The translations under genes and the position numbers were made by a program. This document shows, piece after piece, positions 5,500 to 23,745 of a stretch of DNA of 64,000 nt; the first letter of the stretch is position 1; each line of letters starts with the position of its first letter. The DNA is taken from positions 1 to 64,000 of the forward strand of contig NZ_JALLPO010000003.1 in the NCBI RefSeq assembly GCF_023276435.1, read 5' to 3'. The stretch comes from Sphaerisporangium perillae (GTDB lineage: Bacteria; Actinomycetota; Actinomycetes; Streptosporangiales; Streptosporangiaceae). Below the pieces are notes generated by a model. It was not told the DNA's origin, ran no database searches, and saw only the letters and a list, made by a program, of their open reading frames with translations.

Positions 5500-5817
5500 T
5501 CACTCAGATAGTCGCTCAGTCCGGAACTCCTGGACGACCTCGATCAGGCCAACGATGTTGGCGTTAAACTCGGCCAGTTCGTCAGCGGGCATCCACAGCT
5601 CCAGGATGAGGCCTGCCCACCCGCCTGCTGGACCGGAGACCGCGCCAGAAAATCGCGGCCCCTGGCGATCTTGACGGCGTACTCCTCGTTGAGCACGGGA
5701 TAGAAGATCGGCTCCTCCGGCAGTCGCGGCGGCCACGACCGCCAGCCAGATCGCCGCACCAACTCCAACTCCTCCGGCCCCGTGGGACGCCCACAACGTC
5801 GTCGCCTGGAACGACAC
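5500..5817 (-). pseudogene. Frameshifted remnant of a small hypothetical protein
   Basis: No single frame gives a sensible protein, but three pieces in two frames join well. They are MSFQATTLWASHG (start near 5817), then in the next frame PIFYPVLNEEYAVKIARGRD, then back in the first frame ILELWMPADELAEFNANIVG to the stop at 5500. The assembled order resembles a small family of actinobacterial hypothetical proteins that I recall without a known function. At least two frameshifts are needed, so it is probably dead. It is the first feature inside the left end of the element. Confidence 0.5.
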
Positions 5818-6016
5818 GATCCCCTCCTCGTTCGAGGGCTAACCTAATCGGCCCGCCGGGGCTGAGCGTCCCACGACATCCCGATGAGAAGTGGAGCACG
5901 CCCATCCAGAACCGAGGGCCGCGACGTGTCCGTTCAGACCGTCCTTCCTAATCCCGCTTCTGCTAGTCGGACGGATAGCACTGAAGCGGCAGATGTGCTT
6001 CGAGTGGATGCGCCGC

Positions 6017-6772: not shown

Positions 6773-7299
6773 GATTCTGTATCGTGAAGGCTGTAACCGA
6801 ACTGGTCAATATGGCATACAGCTCTGTATCTCTTCAGTCATCCGCCCACCGGTATTGAGGTCCATGATCTTATACGCTTATCGCGTCATCCAAAAAGTTG
6901 ACTACCTTCAATATCGTTGGTCGCTTCGTTCACTGGCGTCACATCAGATGCGACGGCGCTCTCCGGATTGCGGTGACATCCAGGGGATGGTGTTGTGGCT
7001 TTGCGTAGCATCACTCCTGCTACTACCTGAGGATCTCCTTATCTCGCGCGGCAAGGTCGGCGTCAGCATCGAGAGAAGCGAGGACGGGAGGTGCCGCTCA
7101 ACTGAGTCCTGCTCATTCACATCGTCGCGGTTCGGCTCGATGTAGGGCACGCCCGCGCAGCTTCCCCGGCAACGCGGGATTTCGAGGGGCTCGTCCCACA
7201 ACCCTGAGGTCGAAGGGGGCCAGAGGCTCCCCTGGGAGAGACACCTCCCGAGCCGAAAACTAGGACCTTGACCAATGCCGGGCATCGGCACCGACCCCG
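6773..7299. other. Gene-free, AT-richer stretch
   Basis: This 0.5-kb stretch has distinctly lower GC than its surroundings. I see no convincing coding sequence: an open plus-strand frame at 6705-7145 has no coding character or ribosome site. It may include the promoter of the minus-strand gene at 6017-6772. It ends at the degenerate att copy at 7300. Confidence 0.4.
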
Positions 7300-7343
7300 T
7301 GGTGGGCACTACTAAATTCGAACAAGCGCCTCGCCTGTAAGGC
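7300..7343. repeat. Degenerate third copy of the tRNA-Val att sequence
   Basis: TGGTGGGCACTACTAAATTC followed by GAACAAGCGCCTCGCCTGT and AAGGC aligns with the att core (TGGTGGGCGCTACTGGGTTC, GAACCAGTGACCCCTCGC, TTGTAAGGC). There are several substitutions and a short deletion. The orientation matches attL and attR. It looks like an old attachment-site relic inside the present element. Confidence 0.6.
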
Positions 7344-7492
7344 CCCAGCAGAGCGTTCACCTGCCCTGGGACTACCGATGACCTGCGGCTGCGGCCCTCT
7401 CATGTGCGCGCTGATCCATGGCAGTACGAGGTCGTTGGCGCTCAGTCGATCACTCATGGATCGGTTTGGCTTCGCCTGAATAGGATCACAAC

Positions 7493-8056
7493 ATGCAGGT
7501 GGAAGCGGTGTCGCGGGGCGTGCTGTACGTCGTTGCCTGCGCTGCTCCGGCGGCGGCTTCCGTTCAGCGCCTCGTGCTCCTGGCCCAAGAGGCCGACTGG
7601 ACCGTGCGCGTGATCACCACGCCGATGGGGATGCAGTTTGTCCACGCGGCCGAGCTGGAGAGCCTGACCGGAGATCGCGTTCGCAGCGGCTACCGGATGC
7701 CCGGCGAGGCGAACGAGCTTCCTTCGGCTGACGCGGTGTTGGTCGCTCCTGCCACGTTCAACACGATCAACAAATGGGCCGGCGGCATCGCTGACACGTT
7801 CGCGGTCGGGCTGCTGTGCGAGTTGATGGGCTTCGGCGTCCCGATCGTGGCAGTCCCCCTGCTGAAGGATGCTCTGGCTCGGCACCTGGCGTTCGGTCGT
7901 AGCCTCGACGCGCTTCGCGAGATGGGCGTGCACGTGCTGTTCGATCCCGATGCGCCCGCGCACGCTCGCATGCCACCCTGGGAACACGTGCTAGATGAAC
8001 TTCACCGAGTCTGCGGAAACGAACAGCCGCGGGGGTACCGGCATGGAAGCCCGTAA
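7493..8056 (+). CDS. Flavoprotein (PPC decarboxylase/Dfp-like fold)
   Basis: A 187-residue paralog of the protein at 3702-4235, with the same fold and signature. It opens LYVVACAAPAAASVQRLVLL, then has VLVAPATFNTINKWAGGIAD (PAxNTxN-GIAD clamp) near residue 90. A single Dfp-type domain without the CoaB synthetase part argues against a housekeeping CoA role. It is followed by, and overlaps by 14 bases, an XRE-TPR regulator gene, so the pair is probably co-translated. The substrate is unknown; family members decarboxylate cysteine-containing pantetheine or peptide C-termini with FMN. Confidence 0.85.
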   Translation: MQVEAVSRGVLYVVACAAPAAASVQRLVLLAQEADWTVRVITTPMGMQFVHAAELESLTGDRVRSGYRMPGEANELPSADAVLVAPATFNTINKWAGGIADTFAVGLLCELMGFGVPIVAVPLLKDALARHLAFGRSLDALREMGVHVLFDPDAPAHARMPPWEHVLDELHRVCGNEQPRGYRHGSP

Positions 8057-9260
8057 GGAGATCGGTCAGCGAATCGCGCGTGCACGCAAACGCCGTGGCC
8101 TGTCTCAGCGTGTTCTCGCCGAGCTGATCGGTAGATCCGAGAGCTGGCTCAGCCAGGTCGAACGCGGGCAGCGCGGCGTGGACAGTCATGCCGTACTCGG
8201 CAACCTGGCCAGCATCCTAGGCGTGCCGGTCGCGAACCTCACCGCAAGCGAGGCGGGGAACACCATGGCGGAGTACTCAGCTGCAGCCAAGATCCGGCAG
8301 GCCATGATGGGCTACGACGGCTTGGCCTCCCTGATCGACCCTCGGCACATTGAAGCGACTCACGAAAGCCTCACGTGGTTGAGCGACGAGTTGCGGACCG
8401 TCAACCGGCTCTACCAGGCAACCCGGTACGACGAAGCAGGAAACCGGCTACCCGGACTGATCATCACCACCGAGATCGCCAGCCGAAATGCCCCTGTCAG
8501 CCAACGCCGAGCTTGCAACACCTTGCGGGCACTGACCTACCACTCCACGGCCACCACGTTGAGCAGAGTGGGGGAAGCCGAGCTTGCCTGGACAGCCGGC
8601 GATCGGTCGCTGTGGGCTGCCGAGGATGCGGAAAAGCCTGTCCTCGCCGCGGTGAGCGCCTACCGTCTCGGGTACATCTTCGTGCGGCTGAACGAGCCAG
8701 AGAAAGCGCTGCAGATAGCCGTACGCGCGGCCGAGGCGCTCGAACGCTCGTTCAAGCGCTCCGACCCCGAACACCTGTCGGTGCTCGGCGGCCTGTACCT
8801 GGTCGCCGTGACCGCTGCGGCAACGCGATTCGATCGTGCGGCCGTGGACGCCCTCCTTCGACAGGCCCGGCGCGTAGCGGATCTCCTCGGTGGAGATCGC
8901 AACGACCTCTGGACGGCTTTCGGGCCGACGAACGTGACGATTCATGAGCTGTCGGCGGCGGTTACCTTCGCGGATGCCAAGCAGGCGATCAGCATCGGAG
9001 AACGCATGGACGTCTCGCATCTGGCTTCCGGCCTTCTCGGCCGGCGCACTCAGGTCCATCTCGACCTGGCACGGGCGTACGCCGTCCAACGTAAGGACGC
9101 CGCTTCGGTGAACACACTGCTTGCAGCGGAACGGACATCACCCGAACTCGTCCGCTACGACACGCGAACTGCCGAACTTCTGGCCCAGCTCGTCAAGCGC
9201 GAGCACCGTCCGAGCACTCCAGAACTTCGGGGCCTGGCCCACCGAGCGGGCGTGATTTAA
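8043..9260 (+). CDS. XRE-family regulator with C-terminal TPR-like domain
   Basis: About 405 residues. The N-terminal HTH (residues about 5-60) reads EIGQRIARARKRRGLSQRVL then GRSESWLSQVERGQRGVDSH. The remainder is alpha-helical TPR-like (LSWTAGDRS-type repeats, ALQIAVRAAEALERS, LWTAFGPTNVTIHE). I start at the ATG at 8043 because the HTH family usually begins there; an in-frame ATG at 7995 would add 16 residues. It overlaps the upstream flavoprotein gene. The TPR part matches the HTH-less protein at 4232-5269. It may control the pair's expression, with the TPR half sensing a ligand or partner; that role is inferred. Confidence 0.85.
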   Translation: MEARKEIGQRIARARKRRGLSQRVLAELIGRSESWLSQVERGQRGVDSHAVLGNLASILGVPVANLTASEAGNTMAEYSAAAKIRQAMMGYDGLASLIDPRHIEATHESLTWLSDELRTVNRLYQATRYDEAGNRLPGLIITTEIASRNAPVSQRRACNTLRALTYHSTATTLSRVGEAELAWTAGDRSLWAAEDAEKPVLAAVSAYRLGYIFVRLNEPEKALQIAVRAAEALERSFKRSDPEHLSVLGGLYLVAVTAAATRFDRAAVDALLRQARRVADLLGGDRNDLWTAFGPTNVTIHELSAAVTFADAKQAISIGERMDVSHLASGLLGRRTQVHLDLARAYAVQRKDAASVNTLLAAERTSPELVRYDTRTAELLAQLVKREHRPSTPELRGLAHRAGVI

Positions 9261-9389
9261 CGCGCACTTTCGTGCGGGTTATTTACCTTCACAGACGTAC
9301 GACTTCTCTTAATGGGCGGCATCTAGCTTTCCCTCTACACGCTGAGTGATCAGCGTGACCGTTAGCGTCAACAGAGGGGAACGACGGTG

Positions 9390-9830
9390 ATGCCTACTAC
9401 TCGCAGCTCTGCTCGCGCCGATCAGCACAGCGCCCACCTCGGTGAGCTGGCTCGTCTTCTCCGAGAGCGCGGCGTGCCGAACCTGCTAAGCAAGCGAATC
9501 AGGCTCAAGGTCCACACTGCCGCTTACGGACCGAGATCGTCAGTGACCTACGACTCCCCCGAGCTGGACGTGTGGACCACGGATGGCACGCCCGTCGCCA
9601 TCATCACCGTCGATGACGGTCGGAAAGAAGCGGCCTACTCGATGCGTCCCCTGGGCGAGGCACCTCAGCCGCTATGCCCGGTCGCCGCGCCCGCCGAAGG
9701 GGCCGACATCGTCGCTGCTATGGTCCGCATGGCGAACAACGAAACCCCTGATGCTCTATCCCCCTACGATCCCGCCTCCCTGCCCGAAGATCAGCGCCGC
9801 GCGAACCCTGAGCCTGGATCCACCGCGTGA
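9390..9830 (+). CDS. Hypothetical protein, 3' end replaced by IS1380
   Basis: 146 residues from ATG 9390 (a GTG at 9387 is also possible); a good ribosome site AGAGGGGA lies just upstream. I recognise no family. The middle (YDSPELDVWTTDGTPVAIIT) looks like a compact beta-rich fold of the kind seen in small proteins next to XRE-TPR regulators. The last codons come from the left inverted repeat of the IS1380 element beginning at 9807, which supplies the residues EPGSTA and the stop. The native C-terminus is therefore missing. It lies 129 bp downstream of the XRE gene on the same strand. Confidence 0.6.
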   Translation: MPTTRSSARADQHSAHLGELARLLRERGVPNLLSKRIRLKVHTAAYGPRSSVTYDSPELDVWTTDGTPVAIITVDDGRKEAAYSMRPLGEAPQPLCPVAAPAEGADIVAAMVRMANNETPDALSPYDPASLPEDQRRANPEPGSTA

Positions 9831-11560
9831 TTTCCGATGACGATTTCGGGTCCAATTCCTCCTCGAGGACCGTTTCGCCTGGTAGAACGCTGTTTCGGGC
9901 GTGGGAGGGCCGCCGCTCGCGGGGTCTGCGGTCCGTCCAGGTGTTGCGGGTCGGGGGCGGGGTGATGGCGGTCTCGCCGGTGGCTCGTGGGCCGTCAGGT
10001 GGTACCGGGGTGGGCTGGATCGGCCCGGACTCAGGCTGCTTTGGCAGGTGGTGGCCAGTAGACGGCATCGAAGGTGTTCATCCAGGCGGGTTGCCAGCGC
10101 CAGTGCTCGGGCAGGTGCAGGGTGATGTGGCCGCGGCCGTGGCGGGCGATCCGGGCCGGGACGCAGATCAGGTGGCGGCGCAGGGTGGACACGCGGGCAC
10201 GGGCGTGGAAGGCTCCAGCCAGGCAACCGGTCGTACGCAGCAGATTGTGGGCGATCGCTGCGCAGGTCAGCCACGCGGCGTTGGCGTTGAAGTCGCCTGA
10301 GGGCATGTGTGCGAGCGGGCCGCAGGTCAGGTCGGCGAAGACCTGCTCGATGATGGCGTGGGCACGGTGCTGGCCTTCGGCTTGGACCAGGCCGAAGGGG
10401 CTGTCGGTGAACACCGCGTGGTAGCGGTAGGTGGTGAACAGTTCGTTCTGGCCGATCTTTGCCTGCTCGTTGAGGCGTTTGACCCGGCGGACGATCAGGC
10501 GGGCGGTGACGGCCTGGCCCTTCTTGGACGCGAAAGCGGTGTAGGTGATCTCCGCGATCTCGGCGTCGGAGATCCAGGTGCGGGACTCCTCGTCGAAGAC
10601 GGCGTTCGGGTACTTGATCGCGATCCACGCGGTCTGTGGGATCGCCGCGATCGCCCTTTTGACCTTCGGGTCCATCTTCACCGTGACCGAGAAGCGCACG
10701 TCGTGGTCGCAGCAGGCGTTGATGACGGCCGCGTTGTAGACCGCCGAGTCGCCGCGGGCGATGAGGATCCCGGTGCAGCCCGCCCCGCGTGCGGTCCCGA
10801 TGGACTCGCGGATGAGGGAGGCGGCGCCGCGGGCCGACCCCGCCTTGCCGCCGCGCAGCCGGGTGGTGGCCACGACCGGAGCGGCGAGCGGGGTGGAGAT
10901 CGCCGAGGCGAGCACGTTCAACCCGCGGACCAGCACGCTCTTACCCTGGATCTTGGTGTGGCCGAACCCCGCGCCCTGCTTGTCGGGCCCGTAGATCCGT
11001 TTCTGCATCGAGTCCAGGTCGAGGAAGGCGAGTACGTCCGCGCCGGGCAGTAGCGGCGTGTTCGCGGCGAGCCGGGCCAGCAGTACTCGGTGGACCTTGC
11101 CGAGCTGGCGGACGTTGCCCCAGTTCAGGCAGCGCAGGAACGAGCCGAGCGTGGACGGGGCGCGGATTCCGGAAAACAGCTTGCTCATGCCGCCATGCCG
11201 CAGCGCGTCCAGATCGTCGATGGAGTCGGCTCCGGCGAGCATCCCGGCCACGATCGACCCGATTTTCAGCGGCGCGTTCACCCCGAGAAGGTCGGCGATC
11301 GCCACGTGCTCGTCCACCAGCCCCAGGTCGCACCGCTCGGCCAGACGCATCGCCGGCACCAGCCCCGCGTACGCGACCAGGTGCTCCTCATTGAAGATCG
11401 CATGAGTCTTGGCCGGGGCATGAGAAACTAGCACTTGAGAGGTGTCCTCTCGATTTGGTTGACGGAAGCCTGAAGAACTCCCATCATCCCAGGTCGGAGG
11501 GCACCTCCTCTCATTTCAGGCCATTCGGTTCAGATTTGGCTCGGTGGATCCAGGCTGAGG
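9807..11560. mobile_element. IS1380-family insertion sequence
   Basis: Terminal inverted repeats CCTGAGCCTGGATCCACCG (9807-9825) and, reversed, CCTCAGCCTGGATCCACCG (11542-11560) match at 18 of 19 positions and enclose one transposase gene, 1.75 kb in all. No 4-bp target duplication is visible (left flank GAAC, right flank AGTT). The two flanks belong to different sequences: a truncated hypothetical gene on the left and the middle of an IS3 transposase on the right. Recombination or deletion after insertion is therefore likely. Confidence 0.85.
10031..11434 (-). CDS. IS1380-family transposase
   Basis: A 467-residue, full-length DDE transposase. Characteristic segments are DVLAFLDLDSMQKRIYGPDK near residue 140, IARGDSAVYNAAVINACCDH near residue 235, RFSVTVKMDPKVKRAIAAIP, and the C-terminal QAEGQHRAHAIIEQVFADL followed by NAAWLTCAAIAHNLLR. 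It starts with GTG at 11434. With intact reading frame and terminal repeats, the IS could still be active. It is the only complete transposase in the window. Confidence 0.92.
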   Translation of the reverse strand: MLVSHAPAKTHAIFNEEHLVAYAGLVPAMRLAERCDLGLVDEHVAIADLLGVNAPLKIGSIVAGMLAGADSIDDLDALRHGGMSKLFSGIRAPSTLGSFLRCLNWGNVRQLGKVHRVLLARLAANTPLLPGADVLAFLDLDSMQKRIYGPDKQGAGFGHTKIQGKSVLVRGLNVLASAISTPLAAPVVATTRLRGGKAGSARGAASLIRESIGTARGAGCTGILIARGDSAVYNAAVINACCDHDVRFSVTVKMDPKVKRAIAAIPQTAWIAIKYPNAVFDEESRTWISDAEIAEITYTAFASKKGQAVTARLIVRRVKRLNEQAKIGQNELFTTYRYHAVFTDSPFGLVQAEGQHRAHAIIEQVFADLTCGPLAHMPSGDFNANAAWLTCAAIAHNLLRTTGCLAGAFHARARVSTLRRHLICVPARIARHGRGHITLHLPEHWRWQPAWMNTFDAVYWPPPAKAA

Positions 11561-11799
11561 AGTTGACGGATCGGGATAACGCGATCACCGAAAGCTTCTT
11601 CGCCTCTCTGGAGTGCGAATTGATCGACCGGCGCACCTTCCGCACCAGGTCAGAAGCCGAGCGAGCCCTGTTCAGCTATATCGAAGGGTTCTACAACCCA
11701 CGTCGGCGCCGTTCCGCCAACGGCCAGCTCAGCCCTGCCGAATACGAACGCCGACACGCGCTCAAGAACACCCAAACCCTCGACTATGCTGCCGCGTAG
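11561..11799 (+). pseudogene. IS3-family transposase C-terminal fragment
   Basis: The reading frame through DRDNAITESFFASLECELID, then FIEG-like YIEGFYNPRRRRSANGQLSP ending at 11799, is the C-terminal end of an IS3-family OrfB integrase domain, with the catalytic Glu in ESFF. The usual GDxYDN context is interrupted at 11561, exactly where the IS1380 element begins. Only about 80 residues survive, so it is inactive. Confidence 0.85.
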
Positions 11800-11934
11800 T
11801 CGCAAGCCATGGCTAGAACCAGCCATGCACCGCGCCTCCGCCGGTTAGGCTGCTGAGTGCTGGATTGTCCTATTGGTTGGGAGCATCGATTGGTTTCATT
11901 TTGGTTGCTGAGATTCTCGGTGAGTGATCATGAG

Positions 11935-12282
11935 ATGCCTCGCGTGCTGACGGCACGCGCCCGGATCAAGACGCGAGAACTCCTCGTCAGTTGTGGTGGA
12001 ATACTCAGAGCATGGTCGAGCGACCAGTCCAGGGTCTTCTCCATCGCGTTCGAGCTCACGGATGGATGTTCGATCTCCCCGCAGGAGATGCCCGACCTGA
12101 TTCTTGAAGCACTCGGGCTCGAATCCCGTGCTACCTCGATCAATCCGGTTGCCGAGGACGAGGTCGACGCCATCGAGAAGTCTTCCGATACCCGTGCATT
12201 CAGCCGCCCGGGTTCGCTCTGCCGCCTCTGTCAGGGCTTAGATGGACACCACAGGGAATCATGTCCGAATCGCCGGACCTAG
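11935..12282 (+). CDS. Hypothetical protein with C-terminal CxxC...H...C motif
   Basis: 115 residues from ATG 11935, with a weak ribosome site (GGTGAG). An in-frame start at 11857 exists, but the extra segment is AT-rich and non-coding in character. I recognise no family. The body reads LTARARIKTRELLVSCGG, then FSIAFELTDGCSISPQEMPD. The end has LCRLCQGLDGHHRESCPNR, a small zinc-knuckle-like pattern. It sits 15 bp upstream of a membrane protein gene on the same strand and may form an operon with it. Existence is moderately supported; function is unknown. Confidence 0.5.
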   Translation: MPRVLTARARIKTRELLVSCGGILRAWSSDQSRVFSIAFELTDGCSISPQEMPDLILEALGLESRATSINPVAEDEVDAIEKSSDTRAFSRPGSLCRLCQGLDGHHRESCPNRRT

Positions 12283-12297
12283 CGGGAGCCGTGGTCG

Positions 12298-13221
12298 ATG
12301 AACCGTAGGAAGCCGTCGCCGGGTACGAGCGACTGGAATCCGCCTATTCCTCTCGGATACCCAGCCAGCATCCAGGCACTCGGAGGATTCTCCGCTCCCT
12401 TGTTAGCGGCCACGAGTTTCACCATGACCGCTCTTCTGCTGCCTTCGCTGTCCAAGGGGGCACAGACCTTCGCTCGTTGGCCCGACGCCGCTCTCACACT
12501 CTTCGTGGCCGCCGGACTCGCCATGATTGCGACCATTCAGGGAGCCATGTGGGCTCGCCGGTACGATGTCACTCCGAGTGAGCTGACCGAATGGTGGCCT
12601 GACCAGGTACGCAACGGGAAGCCTAATCGTTTTCTGAGGGAAGTGCAGCGGAGTCATCTGGAGCGGAGCAAGGTCTGGGCTGGCAGGACACGTCACACGT
12701 ACCATGCCGGGATAGTGCTTATGCTGACAGGGATGGTGGTCACGGTGGTGCCACCAGGACCGATCCAGATCTCCCGCTGGTTTCTCATCGTCACCGCGCT
12801 CGTCGGGCTGGCCTGGGAATTGGGGTGGGTCCTCGCCAGCGAGTTCATGGACGTGCTCCGCCGACGCTCTGCTCTTTCACACGCGGCGCTTGGGCTTCTT
12901 TCTGGTGTGGCGGTCGTCGCCGGCACGCAGGGGGGGAGATGGTTCGCCCTTGGCGTCTTCTCTGGTGTGGCGGCGGGTCACGTCTGCTGGACATTTCGCG
13001 CGACTGATCGCTGGGCGGAACCCGTGATGATCCGAGGAGTCCGCGTGGTTCATGTGGTCGTCGTGGTCGTCGGAGCCGGCGTAAGCGCGCTGTTCTTCCT
13101 AGTCGCGGCGCCCACCCTGTGGCTACGCGCGGTCGCGGCCTCCTTTGGTGTGGTGAGCCTCCTCGTGGAGACAGGGTCGATCATCATTCTTCTGAAGGGG
13201 GAGCGGCGTGCTCAATCCTGA
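12298..13221 (+). CDS. Multi-pass membrane protein of unknown function
   Basis: 307 residues with about eight predicted hydrophobic segments: around 38-56 (LLAATSFTMTALLLPSL), 66-84 (LTLFVAAGLAMIATIQG), 138-155, 160-180, 193-208, 215-230, 250-270 and 280-300. The cytoplasmic-looking loop at about residues 88-135 is rich in Arg and Trp. No transporter signature was recognised. Its 3' end overlaps by 10 bp the 3' end of the convergent CHAT-domain gene (stop at 13212). Both genes lie between IS scars and may have arrived together. It could be a membrane partner or target of the CHAT protein, but only position supports this. Confidence 0.7.
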   Translation: MNRRKPSPGTSDWNPPIPLGYPASIQALGGFSAPLLAATSFTMTALLLPSLSKGAQTFARWPDAALTLFVAAGLAMIATIQGAMWARRYDVTPSELTEWWPDQVRNGKPNRFLREVQRSHLERSKVWAGRTRHTYHAGIVLMLTGMVVTVVPPGPIQISRWFLIVTALVGLAWELGWVLASEFMDVLRRRSALSHAALGLLSGVAVVAGTQGGRWFALGVFSGVAAGHVCWTFRATDRWAEPVMIRGVRVVHVVVVVVGAGVSALFFLVAAPTLWLRAVAASFGVVSLLVETGSIIILLKGERRAQS

Positions 13222-16200
13222 GGCGCACGGCTCATCACTCGCCGGATGAATGGATCCTCCTGGTCCGAGGCGGACCATGGTGTCGGGGAGAACAAGGGCC
13301 GTCGGGTATCTCTGAGCAGAGTTCTGCGGAACGACGGTCGCGAGCGCAGTCTTAGCACGTTCAGAAGAAGGCGTCCGTCAGGACAAGGAGCTGAGAGGAG
13401 TTCGAGCATTAGGTGCTCGGGCAACGTGATGGTGCTGCCCATCCGCTGCGCTGTCCCTTGTGCGTCCCGCACGAGCCGCCGGAGGGCGTGGCTGGGAATC
13501 CGGTCCTCCGTGCTTCCTTCGGATCCCCGTTCCCTACGCAGAATCTTCAGCATCGCGGCGCCGCCGATGGTGAACAGACCCTCTTTGAGGAGATGCGTCT
13601 CAAAACCATCGTAGGAGGATTCGAGATACGTGAAAGCGAAGTGCCCGGTCGTCACCACGTTCTGGCGAAGTTCTTTGGCCATACGAGCGGCGCCCTTCAG
13701 TTCGCCTATCAACAAGTCCGACGGCGGAGGCGGAGGGGTCTCCGAGGCCGCCAGTTCCAGTTCCCGGTTCGTGCCATCGCCGCTGACCCACCGCCCCAGC
13801 AGGGAATGCCCCGCCCAGTAAACGGGACTGTACTCCACACCATAGGTTCTCCATCCCACCAGGCACGCGCGTTGCCACTGCGACAGCGCGGTTCGAAGGT
13901 CGGCCCCGCTCTCGAGATGTTCCAGAAGTTCTGCCTCCACGGACACTTCGTCGAAGATGGGGTGAAGGGTGACCAGGGCTTCGTCAGCTCCAGCCCAGAG
14001 GAGGGCGGGGCCGAGGGTGAGCCATTCGCCGCCGGAGGCACCAGAGACGTCTGCGGACTCACAGCCGAGCGCGATGACCGTCCTGGGGAGGGGAAAGACA
14101 CGGTGTGACCGGTCCTCCGCGAGCAGTTCCGCCGCGGTGAGGTAGCCCTGTTCTTGGTCGTCGTCGATGAGGCGAAGGGCGCTGCTGGAAGGCCGTCCTT
14201 GGACGGCCCGGACCGCGTGGCAGGCGAAAACCACCGTGGAGTCGCGACCGAGCCCGCGGAGCGCCTGGGCTAGGTTTGTGCGCGTGGCCGGGGTCCCGGA
14301 AGCTCCGGTGTCAAGCAGCCGGGCCGACTGGGGGATGAAGTATCTGAGATCGTGCGACGCCTGTTGTTCTGAGGCGGGGATCAGCACTGCCAGACGGATC
14401 GGGCCTGACGGGGTGAGCGGACGGTCCGAGAGAGCCTGGATGAGTGCGGCGCTGGGTGCGAGGGTGATGTCGGCGACTTCGACCAGCCTGATGTCCCGGC
14501 CGGGTTCCTCGAACACGCACAGGGTCGCCCAGGGAAGTTGCGCCAAAGCCTCTGCCGGCGCGATAGCGAGGGGCAGCCGTTCCCGCTCTGAGCGGCTGCG
14601 CAATGCTCGGCGCAGGGCCTGGGGTACCAGGCACCTGCCCAACGCGTGCATAAGTGCGCTTTCGGTGGCCCAGTCACCCAAGGCCCCATTCCGTACTCTG
14701 GCTGCCCTTTCGGCTCCGGTCTCGGCTCCCTGCTGGATCGGAAGCGCCGCGGTGAGGCTTAGGAGGAGGTCGGCGAACTCCGATCCCGGCGCGCAATCGA
14801 TCCAGCCGCAAGTTACGTCGCCCTGGGGCGGAACGACACACCAGTAAATGCCTTCTCCGTCGATGCTTGACCACTGCCCCCACCACCACGCGCCCGGTCC
14901 CGCCGCGAGGGCGGCCGTGCGTTCGATGTCGAGGGCCGCCGGACGCTCACCGGCATGGGGCCCGAGGAGACGTGCCTCGCCCCGCACCCTGATAACCGGC
15001 GGCGGTTGCAGCGGAAGGTCGCCCTGCAGCAGGGAGTCCACCGAGTCCTGAGGCACTCCCTGAAGCCGGGCGGCTTCCATCACCTGAGCAGCCGCCCGCG
15101 AATCGCCCACTGCTACGGCGCATGCCAGCGCGCCTTCGACGGCTTCGTTGTAGCGCCGGGCCCAGGAGATCCTGGCGGTCTGGGAACGGAGACGATATCG
15201 CTGCTCGTCAAGTGCCCCGACCGCGGCCATCCGATGGACGAGTGCCTCCGCCGCCTTGCCTTCCCGCTCCAACCGACGGGCGGTCAGCCCGAGGCATTCT
15301 GCCTGCTCGAAGGTCTGGTCGAGGACCTCGAACATCGCAGTGATGCCCGTATCGGGTCCCAGCCAGTCCAGGAGTTCTTGGGTGTCCTCGTCGGTGTCGA
15401 TAGTGACCCGAGCCCTGTCCAGGCTGATGAGGGCGTACTCCCGGATCCCCGCTCGGGCACGCGCGGGGATATCCGTGTCGAACATCTCCCTACGCCAGAG
15501 CAGGACAAAGTTGAGTGCGATCCGCTCGGCGTCCGACCGCAGAACTCTCGCGGTGTCCAGGGAGCCGCTCTGCTGATGTGCGCTGGCACGTCCCCGCACA
15601 CACCGTGCGAGATCGACGAATCGGGAGTGCAACACATACTGCTCGGACGCCGCAAGGAAACACTTCTCCGCATCCGCGGCCCGTCCCACCGCCAGCAACG
15701 CCTCGCCCAAAGCCGCCTGCGCGTCCGCCCGAATCAGACCGTCCTCGCGCTTAAACGACAATTGAGCCGCATAATGGAGCGCAGCCAGGGCCCCGTCGGC
15801 GTTCCCCGATCGCAGGAGCGCCTGTCCTTCGAGCATGGCAAACTTCACCTGGTCGTCGAGCGGCCGACCCCAGACGTTGTCGCCCGGATCACTTCGGACG
15901 AGCCGAAGCCAATGCAACGACTCCTGGAAATCGCCTGCCCGCAGAGCTGCGTCCGCCGTACTTATCCGGAGATCGTGGCGCGCCCCGGCAGGCGCCTGTG
16001 AGGCCAGCTCTCTGAGCAGGCTCAGTGCGTCCTGCGGATAGTCCAGGCGTATGAGCCGACGGGCGCGAAGCAGATTCAGGGCCCTGTCCGGCCGCAGGAG
16101 CCACAGATGGAAGCGGACCCGGAAAGGACGGCGGCGTCCGTAGGAGACCGAGAAAACTCGTCGTCCCACATAGGCGACCACCGCTGCGACAGCAAAAGCA

Positions 16201-16982
16201 GGAAGCGCAATCCATCCGGCGTCGAAGACGAGCGCTAATACCCCTACCGCGATGGTCACCACGGCCAGCCGCTGGCCGAAGAACCCGACGAGAAGGAAGA
16301 AAAACAGAAGCGATCTGAGCAGCGGAGTGTGCGCGACCATCAGCATGGTCGCTTCAGCTGTCCACATCAGGATCCGGCGCTCGCGAAGTCGGATCTTTTC
16401 CAGCACCCGCGCGGCATAGTCGTACTGAGACGGTAGCTGATTCTCCGCAGCTGAATTACTTGTCCGGGTTCCGGCGGCAGCTCGTACGTCCTCCCGACTA
16501 GAGGGACTCTCGCGTGGAGAGTAAAACTCCGACACGATCTCGTTGTGGCCCTCCAATCGTCCACCAAGAAATGCGTCAGAGAGGATCTCTACCGGAGACT
16601 CGTCGCAGCCCCTAACTGCCTCCCCCGCGAAACTTCCGGGAACGATCACGCTGGCGAGCACCACTAAGGCGGAGGGGCAGGAGGGGAAGCCGTACCGACC
16701 GGCCAGGTGGATCGCTAGCCGTATCGCCTCCTCGAGTTGCCGGGAAACCTGTATGCCGCTCACGTCGACCGCAGACGGGTACCCTTCAGCCGCAGTCGGG
16801 CTTCGCCGGTTCAGGGCCTCATTGGTCAACTCCAGCCGGATCAGCGCACGCAGCCAGCTCTCGGGATCATCACGCGAGACGGCCATCAGTACGTCCAGAG
16901 TGTCGACCGGTCGATGTCCCGCCGAACTCATCGCGATCCGCAGCAACCGATAAGCCGAATCCGCGAGCACGACAGAAGTCAT
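13212..16982 (-). CDS. CHAT-domain protease with Clp-N-like repeats, TM segments and TPRs
   Basis: 1256 residues. I start at ATG 16982 after the ribosome site GAGGAG. Domain order by eye: residues 1-143, a two-repeat Clp-N-like region (LADSAYRLLRIAMSSAGHRP-VDTLDVLMAVS; LEEAIRLAIHLAGRYG); 203-275, two or three TM segments (LLFFFLLVGFFG; VVTIAVGVLALVF); 295-640, TPR-like helices; about 700-1065, a CHAT caspase-like domain with LPWATL, His922 in VVFACHA and Cys974 in VIALGCESAD, so the catalytic dyad is present; 1093-1215, two further Clp-N-like repeats (AARMAKELRQN-VVTTGHFAFTYL; ITLPEHLMLELL). CHAT proteins are cysteine peptidases used in bacterial immunity and other switches. Clp-N modules normally bind Clp adaptors and substrates. 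The combination suggests a membrane-anchored, protein-sensing protease carried by the element. The Clp-N assignments are pattern-based and less certain than CHAT. The gene is convergent with the membrane protein at 12298. Confidence 0.82.
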   Translation of the reverse strand: MTSVVLADSAYRLLRIAMSSAGHRPVDTLDVLMAVSRDDPESWLRALIRLELTNEALNRRSPTAAEGYPSAVDVSGIQVSRQLEEAIRLAIHLAGRYGFPSCPSALVVLASVIVPGSFAGEAVRGCDESPVEILSDAFLGGRLEGHNEIVSEFYSPRESPSSREDVRAAAGTRTSNSAAENQLPSQYDYAARVLEKIRLRERRILMWTAEATMLMVAHTPLLRSLLFFFLLVGFFGQRLAVVTIAVGVLALVFDAGWIALPAFAVAAVVAYVGRRVFSVSYGRRRPFRVRFHLWLLRPDRALNLLRARRLIRLDYPQDALSLLRELASQAPAGARHDLRISTADAALRAGDFQESLHWLRLVRSDPGDNVWGRPLDDQVKFAMLEGQALLRSGNADGALAALHYAAQLSFKREDGLIRADAQAALGEALLAVGRAADAEKCFLAASEQYVLHSRFVDLARCVRGRASAHQQSGSLDTARVLRSDAERIALNFVLLWRREMFDTDIPARARAGIREYALISLDRARVTIDTDEDTQELLDWLGPDTGITAMFEVLDQTFEQAECLGLTARRLEREGKAAEALVHRMAAVGALDEQRYRLRSQTARISWARRYNEAVEGALACAVAVGDSRAAAQVMEAARLQGVPQDSVDSLLQGDLPLQPPPVIRVRGEARLLGPHAGERPAALDIERTAALAAGPGAWWWGQWSSIDGEGIYWCVVPPQGDVTCGWIDCAPGSEFADLLLSLTAALPIQQGAETGAERAARVRNGALGDWATESALMHALGRCLVPQALRRALRSRSERERLPLAIAPAEALAQLPWATLCVFEEPGRDIRLVEVADITLAPSAALIQALSDRPLTPSGPIRLAVLIPASEQQASHDLRYFIPQSARLLDTGASGTPATRTNLAQALRGLGRDSTVVFACHAVRAVQGRPSSSALRLIDDDQEQGYLTAAELLAEDRSHRVFPLPRTVIALGCESADVSGASGGEWLTLGPALLWAGADEALVTLHPIFDEVSVEAELLEHLESGADLRTALSQWQRACLVGWRTYGVEYSPVYWAGHSLLGRWVSGDGTNRELELAASETPPPPPSDLLIGELKGAARMAKELRQNVVTTGHFAFTYLESSYDGFETHLLKEGLFTIGGAAMLKILRRERGSEGSTEDRIPSHALRRLVRDAQGTAQRMGSTITLPEHLMLELLSAPCPDGRLLLNVLRLRSRPSFRRTLLRDTRRPLFSPTPWSASDQEDPFIRRVMSRAPQD

Positions 16983-17363
16983 GATCACTCCTCGGCTCGT
17001 TGGAAAGATCGGCTGAAAGCCAACCTTCGGTACTCATGGGTCGGTCCACACAGAACTTGCTCAGGTCGAGATGTTAAGCGCAGTCGGTTCTTGCGATGGC
17101 CCGAATGAAGGAAAACGCTATGACACAATCGGATAACGCAAAAATCTACATAGATACATGAATATTTCCGTTCCCATAAGATCCAGAAAGAACGGCCGAA
17201 ATTGCCTGCCGGGCGCCGAGGTGGAGCAGATCCGCAGGGCAAGTTACGGCGAGGGTCCGATGTTGCGAGTGCCGGAGATTCATCCGTGCAGGTCGCAGGG
17301 ATGATGGGTGATCGCGTGCTCCCGTCCTGGGAATCGCGATGACTGCGCTGATCGGTCGTGTTG
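16983..17363. other. Gene-free upstream region of the CHAT gene
   Basis: About 380 bp between the CHAT gene start and the IS scar. It is AT-richer than average around 17100-17180 and should contain the CHAT promoter. I see no convincing palindrome, RNA or gene in it. Confidence 0.4.
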
Positions 17364-17709
17364 CTGCGCATGGCCTACCTGACGATGACGAGCACCTTCT
17401 CATTCCTGCGACTGCTGCCCCCGACTGATCTTGACAAAGAGGTCAAGATTTTGGTGCTGCGGCATCAACTGGAGATCTTGCAGAGGCAGGTGGCCAGACC
17501 GGCGTTCACGCCGGAGGACCGGTTCCTCCTCGCCCGCCTGCTGTACCGTCTGCCGCTGGCCAAGCTCCGACACCTCTGGTGGTCCGGACACCATCTTGCA
17601 CTGGCACCGCAATCTGCTTCGGCGCCCTAACCTTGGGGCCCGTGCACCTCGTGGGCGTGGACGCCCGCGAACCGTCCGTTCCATTCGGGTGTTGGTGCTG
17701 CGGTTGTCG
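17364..17709 (+). pseudogene. N-terminal fragment of an integrase-core IS transposase
   Basis: The plus strand encodes LLPPTDLDKEVKILVLRHQL, then FTPEDRFLLARLLYRLP, the typical start of an actinobacterial integrase-core transposase. After about 17580 the homology continues in another frame (GPDTILHWHRNLLRR, then GRPRTVRSIRVLVLRL), so there is a frameshift. Homology stops near 17709, where a fragment of a different IS in opposite orientation begins. Inactive. Confidence 0.75.
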
Positions 17710-18380
17710 TTGCTTGTCTTGGGACGGCTGTGCGACTTGGCCACGCCCAGGTCGATGAGCAGCTCGGTGACGGTCTTGGACTTCATCGACGAGCCGCGAT
17801 CGGCGTGCAGGGTCAGCGTGCCGGTGTCGATGGCCTGCTTGTCCGCGGTGGCCTTGATGAGCCGCTTGACTGGCTCGGCGGACTCGCAGGAGGCGACCTT
17901 CCAGCCGGCGACGCAGCGGCTGTAGATGTCGATGATCGTGTACAGGTGGTACCAGACGCCTTTGCCCGGGCCGCGCAGCTTGGTGATGTCCCAGGCCCAC
18001 ACCCGGTTGGGGGCATCGGCGAGCAGTTCGGGAATCGTCTTGGGCGGATGGGTGGCATGACGGCGGCGATCACGGCCGATCTCGCCGTGCTCGCGCAAGA
18101 TCCGGTACATCGTGGAGGTCGACGCCAGGTAGGTGCCCTCGTCCAGCAATGTGAAGTACGCCGTGGCCGGTGCCGCGTCAGCGAACCGCTCGTTGAGCAC
18201 GGTGCGGACGCGGTCGCGCTCGCCCCGCGACAGCGCCGCGGGGTGCGGCTTGCGCGGGGTGAGCGGGCGTGCCGGAGCGGGGCTCCTGCGGTTCGTGCGG
18301 TACCAGTTGGCCTGTGGCACCCCGGCGGCTGCACATGCCTTGCGACGTCCGAGCAGCGGGGTCAGCTTCGAAGGAACGCA
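17710..18380 (-). pseudogene. IS3-family OrfB fragment
   Basis: Read on the minus strand: KLTPLLGRRKACAAAGVPQA, then TYLASTSTMYRILREHGE, then WAWDITKLRGPGKGVWYHLY with the first catalytic Asp, LTLHADRGSSMKSKT with the second Asp, and SHSRPKTSNDN. The C-terminal part carrying the catalytic Glu is missing: the frame runs into the opposite-strand IS fragment near 17710. Together the two pieces form a chimeric IS scar between the CHAT gene and the rest of the element. Confidence 0.8.
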
Positions 18381-18474
18381 TCCACGACCGATCTAACGAT
18401 CAACCCCCAAACGAGTCGCGGTCAAGGCCGGATGCACCGCCGCGCCGACGCCTGACAGCCCCACCGTGAGTGCC

Positions 18475-18753
18475 TCATAGCTTTGTCCGCTGGGTTCGCC
18501 TCAGGAAGTCCTCTCCTCCCGCACCGCTGCCGACCGTCACCCTGTCGACCGTCGACGCCTCCCCGGCCTCATCTGCCAGCAGCCATAGCAGAAGCCTTCG
18601 CCCCACCTGCCGCAGGCAGGAACCAAATCGCCGGAGCCGACTTTCGATGACTTGCATGAGCCGTTTCCCCTGGCGTATATACCAAGCGAGCATCGGTAGG
18701 GCGAGTACGGCATGAAGTCCGTACTGATGGATTAGTTCATCTGCAAACGTCAC
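18475..18753 (-). CDS. Small hypothetical protein
   Basis: 92 residues from GTG 18753, preceded by a good ribosome site (GAAGGAG, 6 bases away). The N-terminal half has a possible membrane-contacting helix (HAVLALPMLAWYI) followed by a basic amphipathic region (QGKRLMQVIESRLRRFGSC). No family was recognised. It stands 46 bp downstream of the gene at 18800-19513 on the same strand, possibly in one transcript. Confidence 0.5.
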   Translation of the reverse strand: MTFADELIHQYGLHAVLALPMLAWYIRQGKRLMQVIESRLRRFGSCLRQVGRRLLLWLLADEAGEASTVDRVTVGSGAGGEDFLRRTQRTKL

Positions 18754-18799
18754 TCTCCACTCCTTCGTGGTTCGGCTCGAATCTCCCGATTGGATTCGA

Positions 18800-19513
18800 T
18801 CATGCGCAGGCAGGTAGGGAGCATGGGGTGGGGTCTGCGCGGAAAGGCCACCCTGGCATTACAGCGATCCCCGACGGGACGTAGAACGAGGTGCTGGAGT
18901 CTGGAATCTGGATCATTGAGGGTGCTTGGATCGGTTCATCATCCAGCATGATCCACTTGGCTCCATTGGAGCCTTTGGCAAGTTCGACACGGATTGCTCT
19001 GACTACCCCTGACGGAGCAACCTGCAGGCCGTACAGATGGTGCGCGGCGATTAGTTCAGGACATGCATCACGGTAGGTCGCATTCCATGGAATAGGACCT
19101 CCGCCGGGCCAACTCCCACCCTGCCTGAGAGGCCCAGGCCAACCTGCCCGCATGTATGAGTAGCGAGCCACCGCAAGTTCGAGGCCTACACCGCGGTTTG
19201 GGCTAGTAGCAGCCTCAACGAAAGTACGGTGATAAGTCAGATCATCGGTCGCTAGGGTCACCCTTGCCCGACGTCCGCGCTTATCTCTTACTGTGCAATG
19301 AAGTAGCCCCCACCCAAGTGGCGTGGGGATCAGGCTGGACGCACCGCAGAACTGATCGTAAGTCGTACCCGCATCACGCGCGGTGGAAGGCGAAACCTCA
19401 GAGTACTCCTTCAGATCCGTCTCCTTCAGGGCTGAATTCATGTACAGGCCCCGCTTCTCCCATACCGGATTCCGCGGAGAGCTGTAGCCGGCCTTGGATC
19501 GCTTTCTCGTCAT
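18800..19513 (-). CDS. Hypothetical protein
   Basis: 237 residues from ATG 19513. No family was recognised. The first about 45 residues are basic and polar. The body is rich in Gly, Pro, Trp and Tyr (YMRAGWPGPLRQGGSWPGG). It ends in a Pro/Cys-containing tail (RADPTPCSLPACA). There is no signal peptide or TM segment. GC and codon bias are weaker than in the core genes, consistent with element cargo. The small gene at 18475 follows on the same strand. Confidence 0.5.
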   Translation of the reverse strand: MTRKRSKAGYSSPRNPVWEKRGLYMNSALKETDLKEYSEVSPSTARDAGTTYDQFCGASSLIPTPLGWGLLHCTVRDKRGRRARVTLATDDLTYHRTFVEAATSPNRGVGLELAVARYSYMRAGWPGPLRQGGSWPGGGPIPWNATYRDACPELIAAHHLYGLQVAPSGVVRAIRVELAKGSNGAKWIMLDDEPIQAPSMIQIPDSSTSFYVPSGIAVMPGWPFRADPTPCSLPACA

Positions 19514-19905
19514 ACCGAGAATGCTGCCGCCATGGAGAAGGCTGCGCTACCGGTCACATTCCAGCGCTCTTCAATCTCCTTGAGATGGCTACGAGCTGGG
19601 CGGATGCTCGCCCACAAGCCCTCCAACTCGTGCGCCAACCAAACGCACGCCCCATACTGTTGCCAACTCGTTACCATCCACCACGTGGCAAGCGCGATCG
19701 CGTCATCTGCGAAGCGGGCCAGCGGTTCAGGCAGCCAGTCGAAGCCTTAGGTGCTTAAGTGGTGGCTTCTGCCAGCCTCTCGGGCGCGCGGGCGGTGCGT
19801 GCCCGGACCGGCCGGAGAGCCGCAGCCGGGCACGCAGACCGGCCGACGCGCCCGGCGGGCCGCGCAGCGGGCCGCCTTTAAACCAGTAAAGAAAATCTGA
19901 GCCCA
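19514..19905. other. Gene-free stretch with a GC-rich inverted-repeat zone
   Basis: No supported gene. Around 19775-19880 the sequence is extremely GC-rich with nested inverted repeats: GGCGGGCCGCGCAGCGGGCC, and GGACCGGCCGG with related arms. It is followed abruptly by an A-rich segment (TTTAAACCAGTAAAGAAAAT). It lies at the 3' side of the GntR gene. It could be a terminator or a replication-related structured site for the element's Rep; this is speculation. Confidence 0.35.
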
Positions 19906-20742
19906 CTACACGCGCAGAGCGACGTGGCCGTCTGACTGACCGGTGTCGCTGGTGATGGCTGAGGCCTCGAAGCGATCGCCGGGTGCTTCGATCTCGGTGA
20001 ATTCGAGTGGCCGGCCGTCGTAGCTGAGGGTGACGCGTCTAATGATCAGGAGGGGTGTTCCTACCGGCTCCATGGACAGGTCAGCGTACGTGTCGCCGTA
20101 GGGCATGCGGGTGTAGACCGAGGTGGCCCAGCGGAGGGGACCGTGGGTGGCCTCCAGGTGGGCGTAGTAGTTGTCCGGCTCGACGTGCAGGTCTATGTCT
20201 CGGTCGGCGCCTTCGCCTTTCACTGTGCCGATGTGGTCTGCGATGACGTAAGAGTCCAGGTGTATGCGGTGGCGAGTCTTGGCGTGCTGCCAGTAGGCGT
20301 AGCGGTAGACCACAACCCGGCCGCGGCGAATGCCCAAGACTTCGGCGTCTTCGCCTTCGGCGGTCATGGGAGCTGGTTGGTTGTGGGGCAGCTTGTTGCC
20401 GCGTTCGATGTCACTGGGCACGGTGACGTGTTCCCACCCTTGTGCGCCGGGGTCGTAGGCAGGGCTGAGTAGGTCTTCTGCTGGTGAGCTACCGAAGGTG
20501 ATCAATCGACGGTCAGGTCGGGCTCGGACGAAGGTTCCTCGTCCATGGGCGACGGTGAGCAGGCCTTCGCTGACGAGTTGCGCGATGGCTTTGCGGATGG
20601 TGGGTCGTGAGGTGGCGTACTCGTCCGCCATGAAAGCTTCGCCGGGGAGTGCCTGTCCGGGCTGGTAGTGGCCTTGCAAGATGTCGGTTCGCAGGAAGCC
20701 GGTGATCTCCCGCCATCGGGCGGTGCCCTTCTCCTCGATCAT
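19906..20742 (-). CDS. GntR-family repressor (KorSA-like)
   Basis: About 278 residues. The N-terminal winged HTH (residues about 8-75) contains TDILQGHYQPGQALPGEAFM, RPTIRKAIAQLVSEGLLTV and HGRGTFV. The C-terminal UTRA/HutC-like effector domain includes LHVEPDNYYAHLEATHGPLRW and LEFTEIEAPGDRFE. I use ATG 20742, which has GGGAG upstream; ATG 20757 is an alternative. It is divergent from the replication initiator, with two palindromic sites in the 105-bp gap. In pSAM2, KorSA of this family represses replication and transfer activation, so this protein probably keeps the element silent. Confidence 0.88.
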   Translation of the reverse strand: MIEEKGTARWREITGFLRTDILQGHYQPGQALPGEAFMADEYATSRPTIRKAIAQLVSEGLLTVAHGRGTFVRARPDRRLITFGSSPAEDLLSPAYDPGAQGWEHVTVPSDIERGNKLPHNQPAPMTAEGEDAEVLGIRRGRVVVYRYAYWQHAKTRHRIHLDSYVIADHIGTVKGEGADRDIDLHVEPDNYYAHLEATHGPLRWATSVYTRMPYGDTYADLSMEPVGTPLLIIRRVTLSYDGRPLEFTEIEAPGDRFEASAITSDTGQSDGHVALRV

Positions 20743-20773
20743 TCGCTCTCCCGTCATTCATTCACTCTTTACA

Positions 20774-20827
20774 AGACGTAGCACGTGTTGGCTACCATGT
20801 CGATGTAGGCCCAGACGTAGCACGTCT
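20774..20827. promoter_or_regulatory. Two GntR operator palindromes
   Basis: Site 2 (20813-20827) is the perfect palindrome AGACGT-AGC-ACGTCT. Site 1 (20774-20788) is AGACGT-AGC-ACGTGT with one mismatch. The copies are 39 bp apart in the divergent gntR/rep intergenic region. Spacing and symmetry fit binding by the adjacent GntR repressor to both promoters (inference). Confidence 0.7.
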
Positions 20828-20862
20828 CCGGGCATGTCGGAACCGAGGCGAAGGAGGTCCCC

Positions 20863-22563
20863 ATGGATGAGAAGGAGGAAGACCGACCCACCGCCAGCCA
20901 GCACCCGGAATGGCTGGTCGATCTCACAGACGTGATCAACGCGTCCGGCTACGAGCGATGGCGCGCGATGGTCGCCGCAACCGGCGGGTGCGCCAACCCG
21001 GTACATCTGGCCGGCGAGTCGCACATCGTCGCTACGGCTACCGGTGAGGTCCTGCACTCCTACCGGACCGCTGACGAACCCTCAGGGCATCTGCTGGTTC
21101 CCTGCGGCAACCGGCGCGCCTCGGTCTGTGCGGCCTGCTCGGAGCTCTATCGGGCCGACACCTTCCAGCTGATCCGCGCGGGCCTGTCCGGCGGTAAGGG
21201 CATCCCTGAGCAGGTCAGCATGCATCCTCGGGTGTTCCTGACCTTGACCGCCCCCTCCTTCGGGCCGGTCCACAGCCGGCGCGAGCACAACGGAACGGTG
21301 CGGCCCTGCCGGCCGCGTGCTCGCTGCAGGGTGTGTGAGCACGGGCAGCCAGTCGGCTGCCACATACGGCATGAGCCCCAGGATGCCGAGCTCGGGCAAC
21401 CGATCTGCATGGGGTGTTACGACTATGTGGGCGCGGTGCTGTGGCAGGCGCACGCGGGCGTGTTGTGGCACCGGTTCACTCTCGAAGTGCGGCGCGAGCT
21501 TGCCAAGCAGGCGGGGATGAGCCGCCGCGCGTTCGGCAAGCTGGTCCGGGTCTCCTTCGCCAAGGTCGCCGAGTATCAACGGCGCGGCCTCGTCCACTTT
21601 CATGCCGTCGTCCGGCTGGATGGTCCCGAGGGCGGCACCGACCTTCCCCCGGACTGGGCCGATCACGGACTGTTGGTGGGGGCCATCCCGGCGGCGGTCC
21701 GGCGCGTGGAGGTCACCTCTGCCAAGAGCGAGCTTGGCCGGCGGCGGCTGGTCTGGGGCGATCAGCTCGACATCCGGCCCATCCTGCTCAGCGCCTCGCT
21801 GGACGGGGTCAGCGAGCAAGCGGTGGCCGGTTACATCGCCAAGTACGCCACCAAGGGTGCTGAGGCGTCGGGCACCGTCGATAACCGTCTGTCCTGCTCG
21901 GCCTGCCGAGGGAAGGGACGGCTCGGTCCGGCTGCCTCGTGCGCGGGCTGTCAGGGCACAGGACTCAAGCCGGGCTTTTTGCTAGATCTGCTTCCGGTGA
22001 CCGAGCATGCCCGGTGCATGATCCGCACGTGCTGGGAGCTGGGCGCACGGTCGGAGCTCGCGCATCTGAGGTTGCGTCCTTGGGCGCACATGCTGGGGTT
22101 TCGCGGTCACTTCGCCACCAAGTCGCGCCGTTACTCCACCACCATGGGCGCTCTCCGGCAGGCACGCGACGATCACCGTGCCGCCGAGGCGCGCGACCGC
22201 AACGGGCTTCCCGTACTCGGGGACGGCTCAACGCTCGTGCTCGGCCACTGGCGATTCGCCGGAAGCGGCCACTCCCCCGGTGAAGCCATCTTGGCCGAGG
22301 AGATCCGGCACAGCATCCAGCACCCGCACGATCCCGGCCCAGCGGGCGGCCGAATGATGCGAGCCGACCGAAGCGACGGCAAGCGGCTCTATCGCGTCAG
22401 CGACGCCATGCACCTGCTCAGCATGAGCCGCACCGTGATCTACGAGCAGATCAGGACCGGACGGCTCCGCTCCGTTACTCAAGGCCGTACCCGGCTGATC
22501 CCGGCCTCGGCTATCTCGGACTACATCGCACTCCTCGAACAGGAAGCGAGGGCAGCCTCATGA
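20863..22563 (+). CDS. RepSA-type replication initiator fused to an excisionase-like HTH
   Basis: 566 residues. Residues about 1-500 are a rolling-circle (HUH) initiator of the AICE RepSA type. They include RVFLTLTAPSFGPVH, the HUH motif RGLVHFHAVVRLDG near residue 245, a catalytic Tyr region VAGYIAKYATKGAE, and a zinc-binding-like CSACRGKGRLGPA with CAGCQGTG. The last about 60 residues (KRLYRVSDAMHLLSMSRTVI then YEQIRTGRLRSVTQGRTRLI) are a MerR/excisionase-type HTH that in pSAM2 is encoded by a separate xis gene. A strong ribosome site (AAGGAGGT) precedes ATG 20863. Its stop overlaps the integrase start (ATGA). It nicks the element's origin during replicative excision and transfer; the fusion would also couple it to excision. 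Confidence 0.9.
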   Translation: MDEKEEDRPTASQHPEWLVDLTDVINASGYERWRAMVAATGGCANPVHLAGESHIVATATGEVLHSYRTADEPSGHLLVPCGNRRASVCAACSELYRADTFQLIRAGLSGGKGIPEQVSMHPRVFLTLTAPSFGPVHSRREHNGTVRPCRPRARCRVCEHGQPVGCHIRHEPQDAELGQPICMGCYDYVGAVLWQAHAGVLWHRFTLEVRRELAKQAGMSRRAFGKLVRVSFAKVAEYQRRGLVHFHAVVRLDGPEGGTDLPPDWADHGLLVGAIPAAVRRVEVTSAKSELGRRRLVWGDQLDIRPILLSASLDGVSEQAVAGYIAKYATKGAEASGTVDNRLSCSACRGKGRLGPAASCAGCQGTGLKPGFLLDLLPVTEHARCMIRTCWELGARSELAHLRLRPWAHMLGFRGHFATKSRRYSTTMGALRQARDDHRAAEARDRNGLPVLGDGSTLVLGHWRFAGSGHSPGEAILAEEIRHSIQHPHDPGPAGGRMMRADRSDGKRLYRVSDAMHLLSMSRTVIYEQIRTGRLRSVTQGRTRLIPASAISDYIALLEQEARAAS

Positions 22564-23726: not shown

Positions 23727-23745
23727 TCACTCATTTAGTCACTCA
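23723..23745. repeat. Two tandem 11-bp repeats (TTAGTCACTCA x2) at the integrase 3' end
   Basis: TTAGTCACTCA occurs at 23723 (containing the int stop TAG) and 23735. The location between int and attR suits arm-type binding sites for integrase or excisionase. It parallels the different 11-mer pair at 5295-5316. Confidence 0.55.

Follow-up and report, generated by a model that had tools for sequence, protein, structure and literature searches.

This study concerns the first 64,000 nucleotides of contig NZ_JALLPO010000003.1 of Sphaerisporangium perillae (the window), from a genome of 9.3 Mb. In the window, a reverse-strand gene (13212-16982), read from an ATG codon that follows an AGGAG Shine-Dalgarno sequence by 5 bases, encodes a protein of 1256 residues in which a CHAT protease domain, predicted transmembrane helices, and TPR-like repeats lie between two Clp-N-like modules. 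A forward-strand gene (12298-13221), overlapping the first tail to tail by 10 bases, encodes a multi-pass membrane protein of 307 residues with five hydrophobic stretches, a candidate effector. Both genes lie between att repeats at 5343-5402 and 23770-23829, and are therefore cargo inside an integrative element. We found that the layout of the protease and its catalytic dyad are conserved in six homologues, and that in five of them the gene directly upstream encodes a partner different from the membrane protein of the window: a probably gasdermin-like protein in three and a DUF6338 membrane protein in two. We give somewhat better than an even chance to the reading that the window protease is the membrane-anchored, caspase-like (CHAT) switch of a conflict module made of a protease and a membrane effector.

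The CHAT domain (PF12770; 13794-14654, reverse strand) was matched in Pfam with an E value of 1.2e-23 and 84.4 bits, against a curated cut-off of 24. The catalytic residues are His922 in the motif VFACHAV (codon 14217-14219) and Cys974 in IALGCESAD (codon 14061-14063). Both are invariant in all seven family members, the window protease and its six homologues, which align end to end. Two transmembrane helices are predicted from hydropathy at residues ~214-232 and ~240-258 (16209-16343, reverse strand), and a weaker hydrophobic helix at residues 102-120 lies within the N-terminal module. The homologues have three to six hydrophobic stretches each, most of them between residues ~170 and 410. The TPR matches in the window protease are below the Pfam cut-off (TPR_19, E 0.0059; TPR_16, E 0.0061). 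An earlier note on this DNA, made from the letters alone, had described a protein of this length with a complete dyad at these positions, and had staked its proposal on homologues keeping the His and Cys; all of this held. Among the other parts that it named, the transmembrane helices agree with the hydropathy, and the TPRs are weak.

The C-terminal module (residues ~1093-1215; 13338-13706, reverse strand) is firmly predicted to be a Clp-N double repeat. With the family profile (A6), hmmsearch against PDB matched both repeats to the ClpC N-domain with an E value of 9e-7, and 57 of the best 60 of 75 PDB matches were Clp/Hsp100 proteins. In hhalign against the set of Clp-N sequences from the same genome, this module scored 92%. 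The N-terminal module (residues 1-143; 16554-16982, reverse strand) is likely to be Clp-N as well. Its profile matched ClpC in PDB with an E value of 0.024, and its structural model, of low confidence (pLDDT 52.8), matches Clp proteins first. On the opposing side, this profile match is sub-significant and the first PDB row is not ClpC, and the module scored only 11.7% in hhalign. The claim of the earlier note that Clp-N double repeats stand at both ends was thus borne out at the C-terminus, and with moderate evidence at the N-terminus. Pfam gave no Clp_N match at E ≤ 1 in the window protease itself; it matched Clp_N under the curated cut-off in the homologues from Actinoallomurus purpureus (E 0.0031) and Actinomadura madurae. 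We consider it very unlikely that the two ends only look like Clp-N and are helical bundles of a generic kind, since both C-terminal repeats matched ClpC in a search of all PDB, a homologue was matched to Clp_N by Pfam (below the cut-off), and hhalign gave four further segments of these proteins only 0.1-0.2%. A membrane-tethered CHAT protease with predicted Clp-N modules on either side is a conserved layout, and its dyad is invariant. Elsewhere in the same genome, Clp-N repeats were seen in frames (C46:84699-85208, C37:11084-11455, and C74:5118-5486) of only 251-421 codons, a length that a full Clp ATPase would exceed.

The homologues come from Actinomadura madurae (L004), Actinoallomurus purpureus (L005), Streptomyces NRRL S-244 (L007), Streptomyces Je 1-79 (L008), Paractinoplanes toevensis (L009), and Mycobacterium OAS707 (L011), and are 27.5-34.2% identical to the window protease over the C-terminal half. 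Stretches of 12-20 kb were studied around each. The genes directly upstream in L005, L007, and L008 encode proteins of 257-260 residues with 47-64% mutual identity, and those in L004 and L009 encode DUF6338 proteins (Pfam E 2.4e-43 and 7.3e-33). The gene at this position in L011 codes for a TraG/VirD4-like coupling protein. In a tree of the seven proteases, L005, L007, and L008, whose partners are gasdermin-like, form a group with a support of only 0.646; thus, the tree gives no demonstration of partner exchange. A small acidic protein precedes DUF6338 in L004 (6233-6493, 86 residues) and L009 (6601-6834, 77 residues), and the two share by eye a similar stretch (RFRSY and QFRGY).

The gasdermin-like look of the ~257-residue family was noted from its sequence before a seven-row profile was tested. 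That profile (A7) gave a sole PDB match at E ≤ 10: 7n50, a bacterial gasdermin, with an E value of 0.15 and 110 positions in collinear alignment. A profile of the family together with the 7n50 fragment gave three matches at E ≤ 10, all of them bacterial gasdermins: 7n50 itself (by construction), 9v2s (E 0.010), and 7n52 (E 0.013), the last two being one protein, judging by the aligned letters. With the 7n50 fragment alone, as a yardstick, matches to the other bacterial gasdermin of solved structure had E values of only 0.50 and 0.63 and stood among PCNA chains. Pfam gave the family a single match, at chance level (E 0.23), and named a gasdermin neither for it nor for the known 7n50 fragment; the silence of Pfam on the family therefore says little. 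We consider that the partner family is probably gasdermin-like.

Several observations weigh against this assignment, or against the module as a whole. The three-row profile of the family had a single PDB match, 3ke2 (E 1.2), and so reached no gasdermin; the seven-row profile alone did. The model of the ~257-residue protein is too poor to be of use (pLDDT 43.6). Two gasdermin pores are listed by Foldseek, in first and fifth place, although their template modelling score is about 0.1, and the VIA list for the model shows no gasdermin. An N-terminal palmitoylated Cys has been reported for most bacterial gasdermins, and none of the seven rows of the alignment has a Cys in the first 15 residues (the relative from a Streptomyces avidinii plasmid, described below, has one at residue 18). 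The Mycobacterium homologue has no recognisable partner beside it, and the genome of the window has no gasdermin-like homologue at E 1e-8 or 1e-5.

The three homologue loci had defined the gasdermin-like family; relatives on plasmids were therefore an independent test of its linkage to CHAT genes. A tblastn search of plasmids with the family gave four distant relatives; with the gasdermin fragment it gave no match. The relative on an Embleya plasmid (L032) adjoins a CHAT-TPR gene, and that of the S. avidinii plasmid (L055; E 4e-4 and 8e-5) adjoins another, divergently oriented. On a Mesorhizobium plasmid (L034), a CHAT gene lies 2.5 kb away. Each of these three plasmids has a single CHAT match, so that chance adjacency is unlikely. 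The Gemmatirosa plasmid (L033) has three CHAT matches, and no CHAT gene was recognised within 8 kb of its relative, a further point on the opposing side. In total, a CHAT gene adjoins the gasdermin-like gene in five of seven places, three of which defined the family, and lies 2.5 kb away in a sixth. Among genomes, the family was found in one of 394 of the class (G542) and in none of 296 in the phylum.

Two of these plasmid surroundings contain other genes of interest. Before the Gemmatirosa gasdermin-like gene, an open reading frame (L033 5208-7970) has a C-terminal part that is TIR-like by eye (YFSHSYRD). In Mesorhizobium, the gasdermin-like gene lies among SUMF1/EgtB-like, ASCH, CHAT, and QueC-like genes (L034 5382-14350), and this region looks like a defence locus.

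At the window, the candidate partner is the 307-residue protein. The multi-pass membrane protein of no known family that the earlier note had seen convergent with the protease is encoded by a real reading frame that has relatives, and has no match at E ≤ 1 in Pfam, NCBIfam, or PADLOC. A PDB search with the profile of its family (A8) gave 17 matches of no consistent family (best E 0.13), and these were rejected. Nine relatives were obtained from nine of 149 related genomes, its own included, and one plasmid. In surroundings of ~8 kb per side where the contig allows, two of them, in G132 and G134, follow a co-directional CHAT gene at distances of 66 and 111 bases; this count of two in nine places is a lower bound, as Pfam was run on chosen neighbours. 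The CHAT proteins in question (L049 8669-12436 and L050 4054-7812) have 1252-1255 residues, with CHAT in the N-terminal part and a weak NB-ARC/AAA-like (NTPase-like) match, under the Pfam cut-off, in the second part. Each of the two genomes has two CHAT matches in 6-7 Mb. Both are from one family, and the adjacency may represent one event. Among the other relatives, one has an AAA protein ~1.4 kb away, one adjoins a Fic protein, and one adjoins a Clp-N protein. Pairing with CHAT proteases thus recurs for the 307-residue family, but outside the subfamily with Clp-N modules at both ends.

The co-occurrence of this membrane protein with the protease, which the earlier note had also expected, did not hold in this subfamily: no relative was found in the 12-20 kb around any of the six homologues (E 1e-3). 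This absence, and the convergent rather than co-directional arrangement of the two genes, tell against the pair as a unit. An explanation compatible with a conflict role of the protease is that the 307-residue protein is an unrelated passenger and that the true partner was lost, perhaps to an insertion sequence (IS)-like insertion upstream. It would fit the directly upstream position of the partner in five of six homologues, where the 307-residue protein is absent, and the lack of any credible gene upstream of the window protease up to an IS-like scar at ~17400. The relatives beside other CHAT genes in two of nine places speak against it, as does the window itself, in which tblastn (E 0.01) found nothing left of either a gasdermin-like gene or one for DUF6338. 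We regard this explanation as an appreciable possibility that falls short of being probable. As for the output at the window, the 307-residue protein is our tentative choice, held at a little under an even chance, and a gene since lost may be the answer with a chance clearly below even.

The integrative element (5343-23829) is pSAM2-like and 18.5 kb long; the earlier note had correctly placed the genes on an integrative element. Its ends are the perfect 60-base direct repeats (60/60 identical), of which the right-hand copy (23770-23829) overlaps the 3' part of a tRNA-Val gene (23783-23857, reverse strand). A pSAM2-type replication initiator, RepSA (20863-22563, forward strand; PF20199, E 1.3e-162), and a tyrosine integrase (22560-23726, forward strand; PF00589, E 3.3e-19) adjoin this copy. 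To the left of the protease and membrane protein genes lies a transposase (DDE_Tnp_1_4 in Pfam; 10031-11434), and the segments at 11455-11799 and 17400-18320 are what we take to be IS3-like scars. A 237-residue protein of the element (18800-19513, reverse strand) has no Pfam or NCBIfam match. For the six proteins tested, PADLOC-DB 2.0.0 gave no family at E ≤ 1, and NCBIfam gave nothing informative for the proteins tested.

The protease is rare in its taxonomic family. It was found in three of 341 genomes there, its own included, and at the order level its profile matched five of 345 genomes, two of them weakly (G286, E 1.5e-29; G086, E 1.7e-16, with one stop). A scan of genome contigs with a three-row alignment and two peptide patterns gave six loci, two of which are those of the family-level search; the pattern scan misses divergent members. 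The same kind of scan with the window protease alone gave no relative. In plasmids, tblastn with the CHAT domains of the window and of L007 gave no match, and viral contigs contained no relatives of the CHAT protease or of the gasdermin-like family. The genome of the window has six CHAT matches; these include another protein encoded in the window (54203-57067, forward strand; 954 residues; PF12770, E 8.9e-30), which has N-terminal TPR-like repeats.

This distribution bears on another explanation, in which the protease serves protein quality control or stress: its Clp-N ends would capture Clp adaptors, or host proteins that are aberrant, and CHAT would cut a regulatory protein, with neither suicide nor a substrate among the neighbours. 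In its favour, Clp-N is established as the client- and adaptor-docking module of ClpA, ClpB, and ClpC, and the large contigs of L004, L005, and L008 have neighbouring genes that by eye look metabolic. We consider it unlikely in view of the rarity of the protease in its family, the mobile element that carries the window gene, the TraG-like neighbour in L011, and a linkage to membrane or gasdermin-like partners that would be unexpected for housekeeping.

CHAT proteases, pairs of CHAT proteases with gasdermins, and Clp-N domains are all known. Bacterial gasdermins cluster with caspase-like proteases and are cut by them, and in the Runella system mutation of the catalytic residues H796 and C840 of the protease abolishes toxicity (PMC9079055). 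Our loci resemble these systems (PMC9079055, PMC10989679) in having a His/Cys protease beside a small, probably gasdermin-like protein, at three loci of the present subfamily and two plasmid loci, and near it in a third plasmid. They differ in the Clp-N modules at both ends and the transmembrane helices of the protease, in a partner family that lacks the N-terminal Cys and is detected at the profile level only, and in the absence of such a gene at the window. In Craspase, the TPR-CHAT protease of type III-E CRISPR, the protease is autoinhibited until the guide complex binds its target, and substrates of CHAT proteases are said to be commonly encoded nearby (PMC9729208). There too, CHAT stands behind TPR-like repeats, and a substrate encoded nearby would be a further shared trait; the dyad spacing is similar, at 42 residues (H585/C627) versus 52 in the window protease, which has in addition the Clp-N ends and membrane anchor, and beside whose gene we noticed no CRISPR partner (no search was aimed at CRISPR). 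For a fungal TPR-CHAT protease, activation of a gasdermin has been described (PMC12881547); CHAT is likewise paired with a gasdermin there, in a fungal host; Clp-N ends go unmentioned in the accessible parts of PMC12881547 and PMC10989679. With the ClpC, ClpA, and ClpB N-domains, the window protease shares the double repeat at its C-terminus and probably at its N-terminus; it differs in that no AAA+ ATPase was matched and the repeats are fused to a caspase-like protease. We found no paper on Clp-N joined to CHAT in the open-licence PMC literature, which is weak evidence of novelty.

Because Clp-N docks clients and adaptors in Clp ATPases, for which this role is established, we propose an input role for the ends of the protease. 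On the precedents of Craspase and the bacterial gasdermins, we further propose CHAT as the switch and an adjacent membrane-acting protein as the output. The ligand of the Clp-N modules would be a Clp adaptor or a protein that is unfolded or comes from a phage or the element; once bound, it would shift the position of the CHAT domain and thereby turn on the Cys-His dyad; and the activated protease would cleave a membrane-acting partner encoded nearby, which in the relatives would be the gasdermin-like or DUF6338 protein and at the window, as the best candidate, the convergent 307-residue protein. The outcome may be membrane permeabilisation and growth arrest, and the module would then probably serve bacterial cell suicide or defence, with a sensor of an unusual kind. 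Proteolysis, the sensing step, activation, cleavage, killing, and the identity of the substrate at the window we infer. Thus, in the new conflict system with a membrane-tethered protease that the earlier note had proposed, the conserved layout, the invariant dyad, and the neighbours of the homologues fit, and the pairing with the convergent membrane protein does not. In its widest form, which we offer tentatively and hold to be somewhat less than probable, the module would be a bacterial counterpart of the inflammasome. In place of an NLR, the membrane-anchored, caspase-like protease would contain two copies of a Clp-type substrate receptor; it would recognise protein that is foreign or unfolded and set off membrane effectors that can be exchanged, among them a second bacterial gasdermin lineage without the palmitoylated N-terminal Cys.

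To our knowledge, little has been established about the way in which caspase-like proteases of bacteria perceive infection. A conserved protease whose two ends are client-docking Clp-N modules would offer a concrete, testable input for such sensing. One protease family beside three different membrane-acting partners would allow effectors to be compared under one switch. If the gasdermin-like assignment is true, gasdermin-type killing would extend to a divergent family without a name in Pfam.
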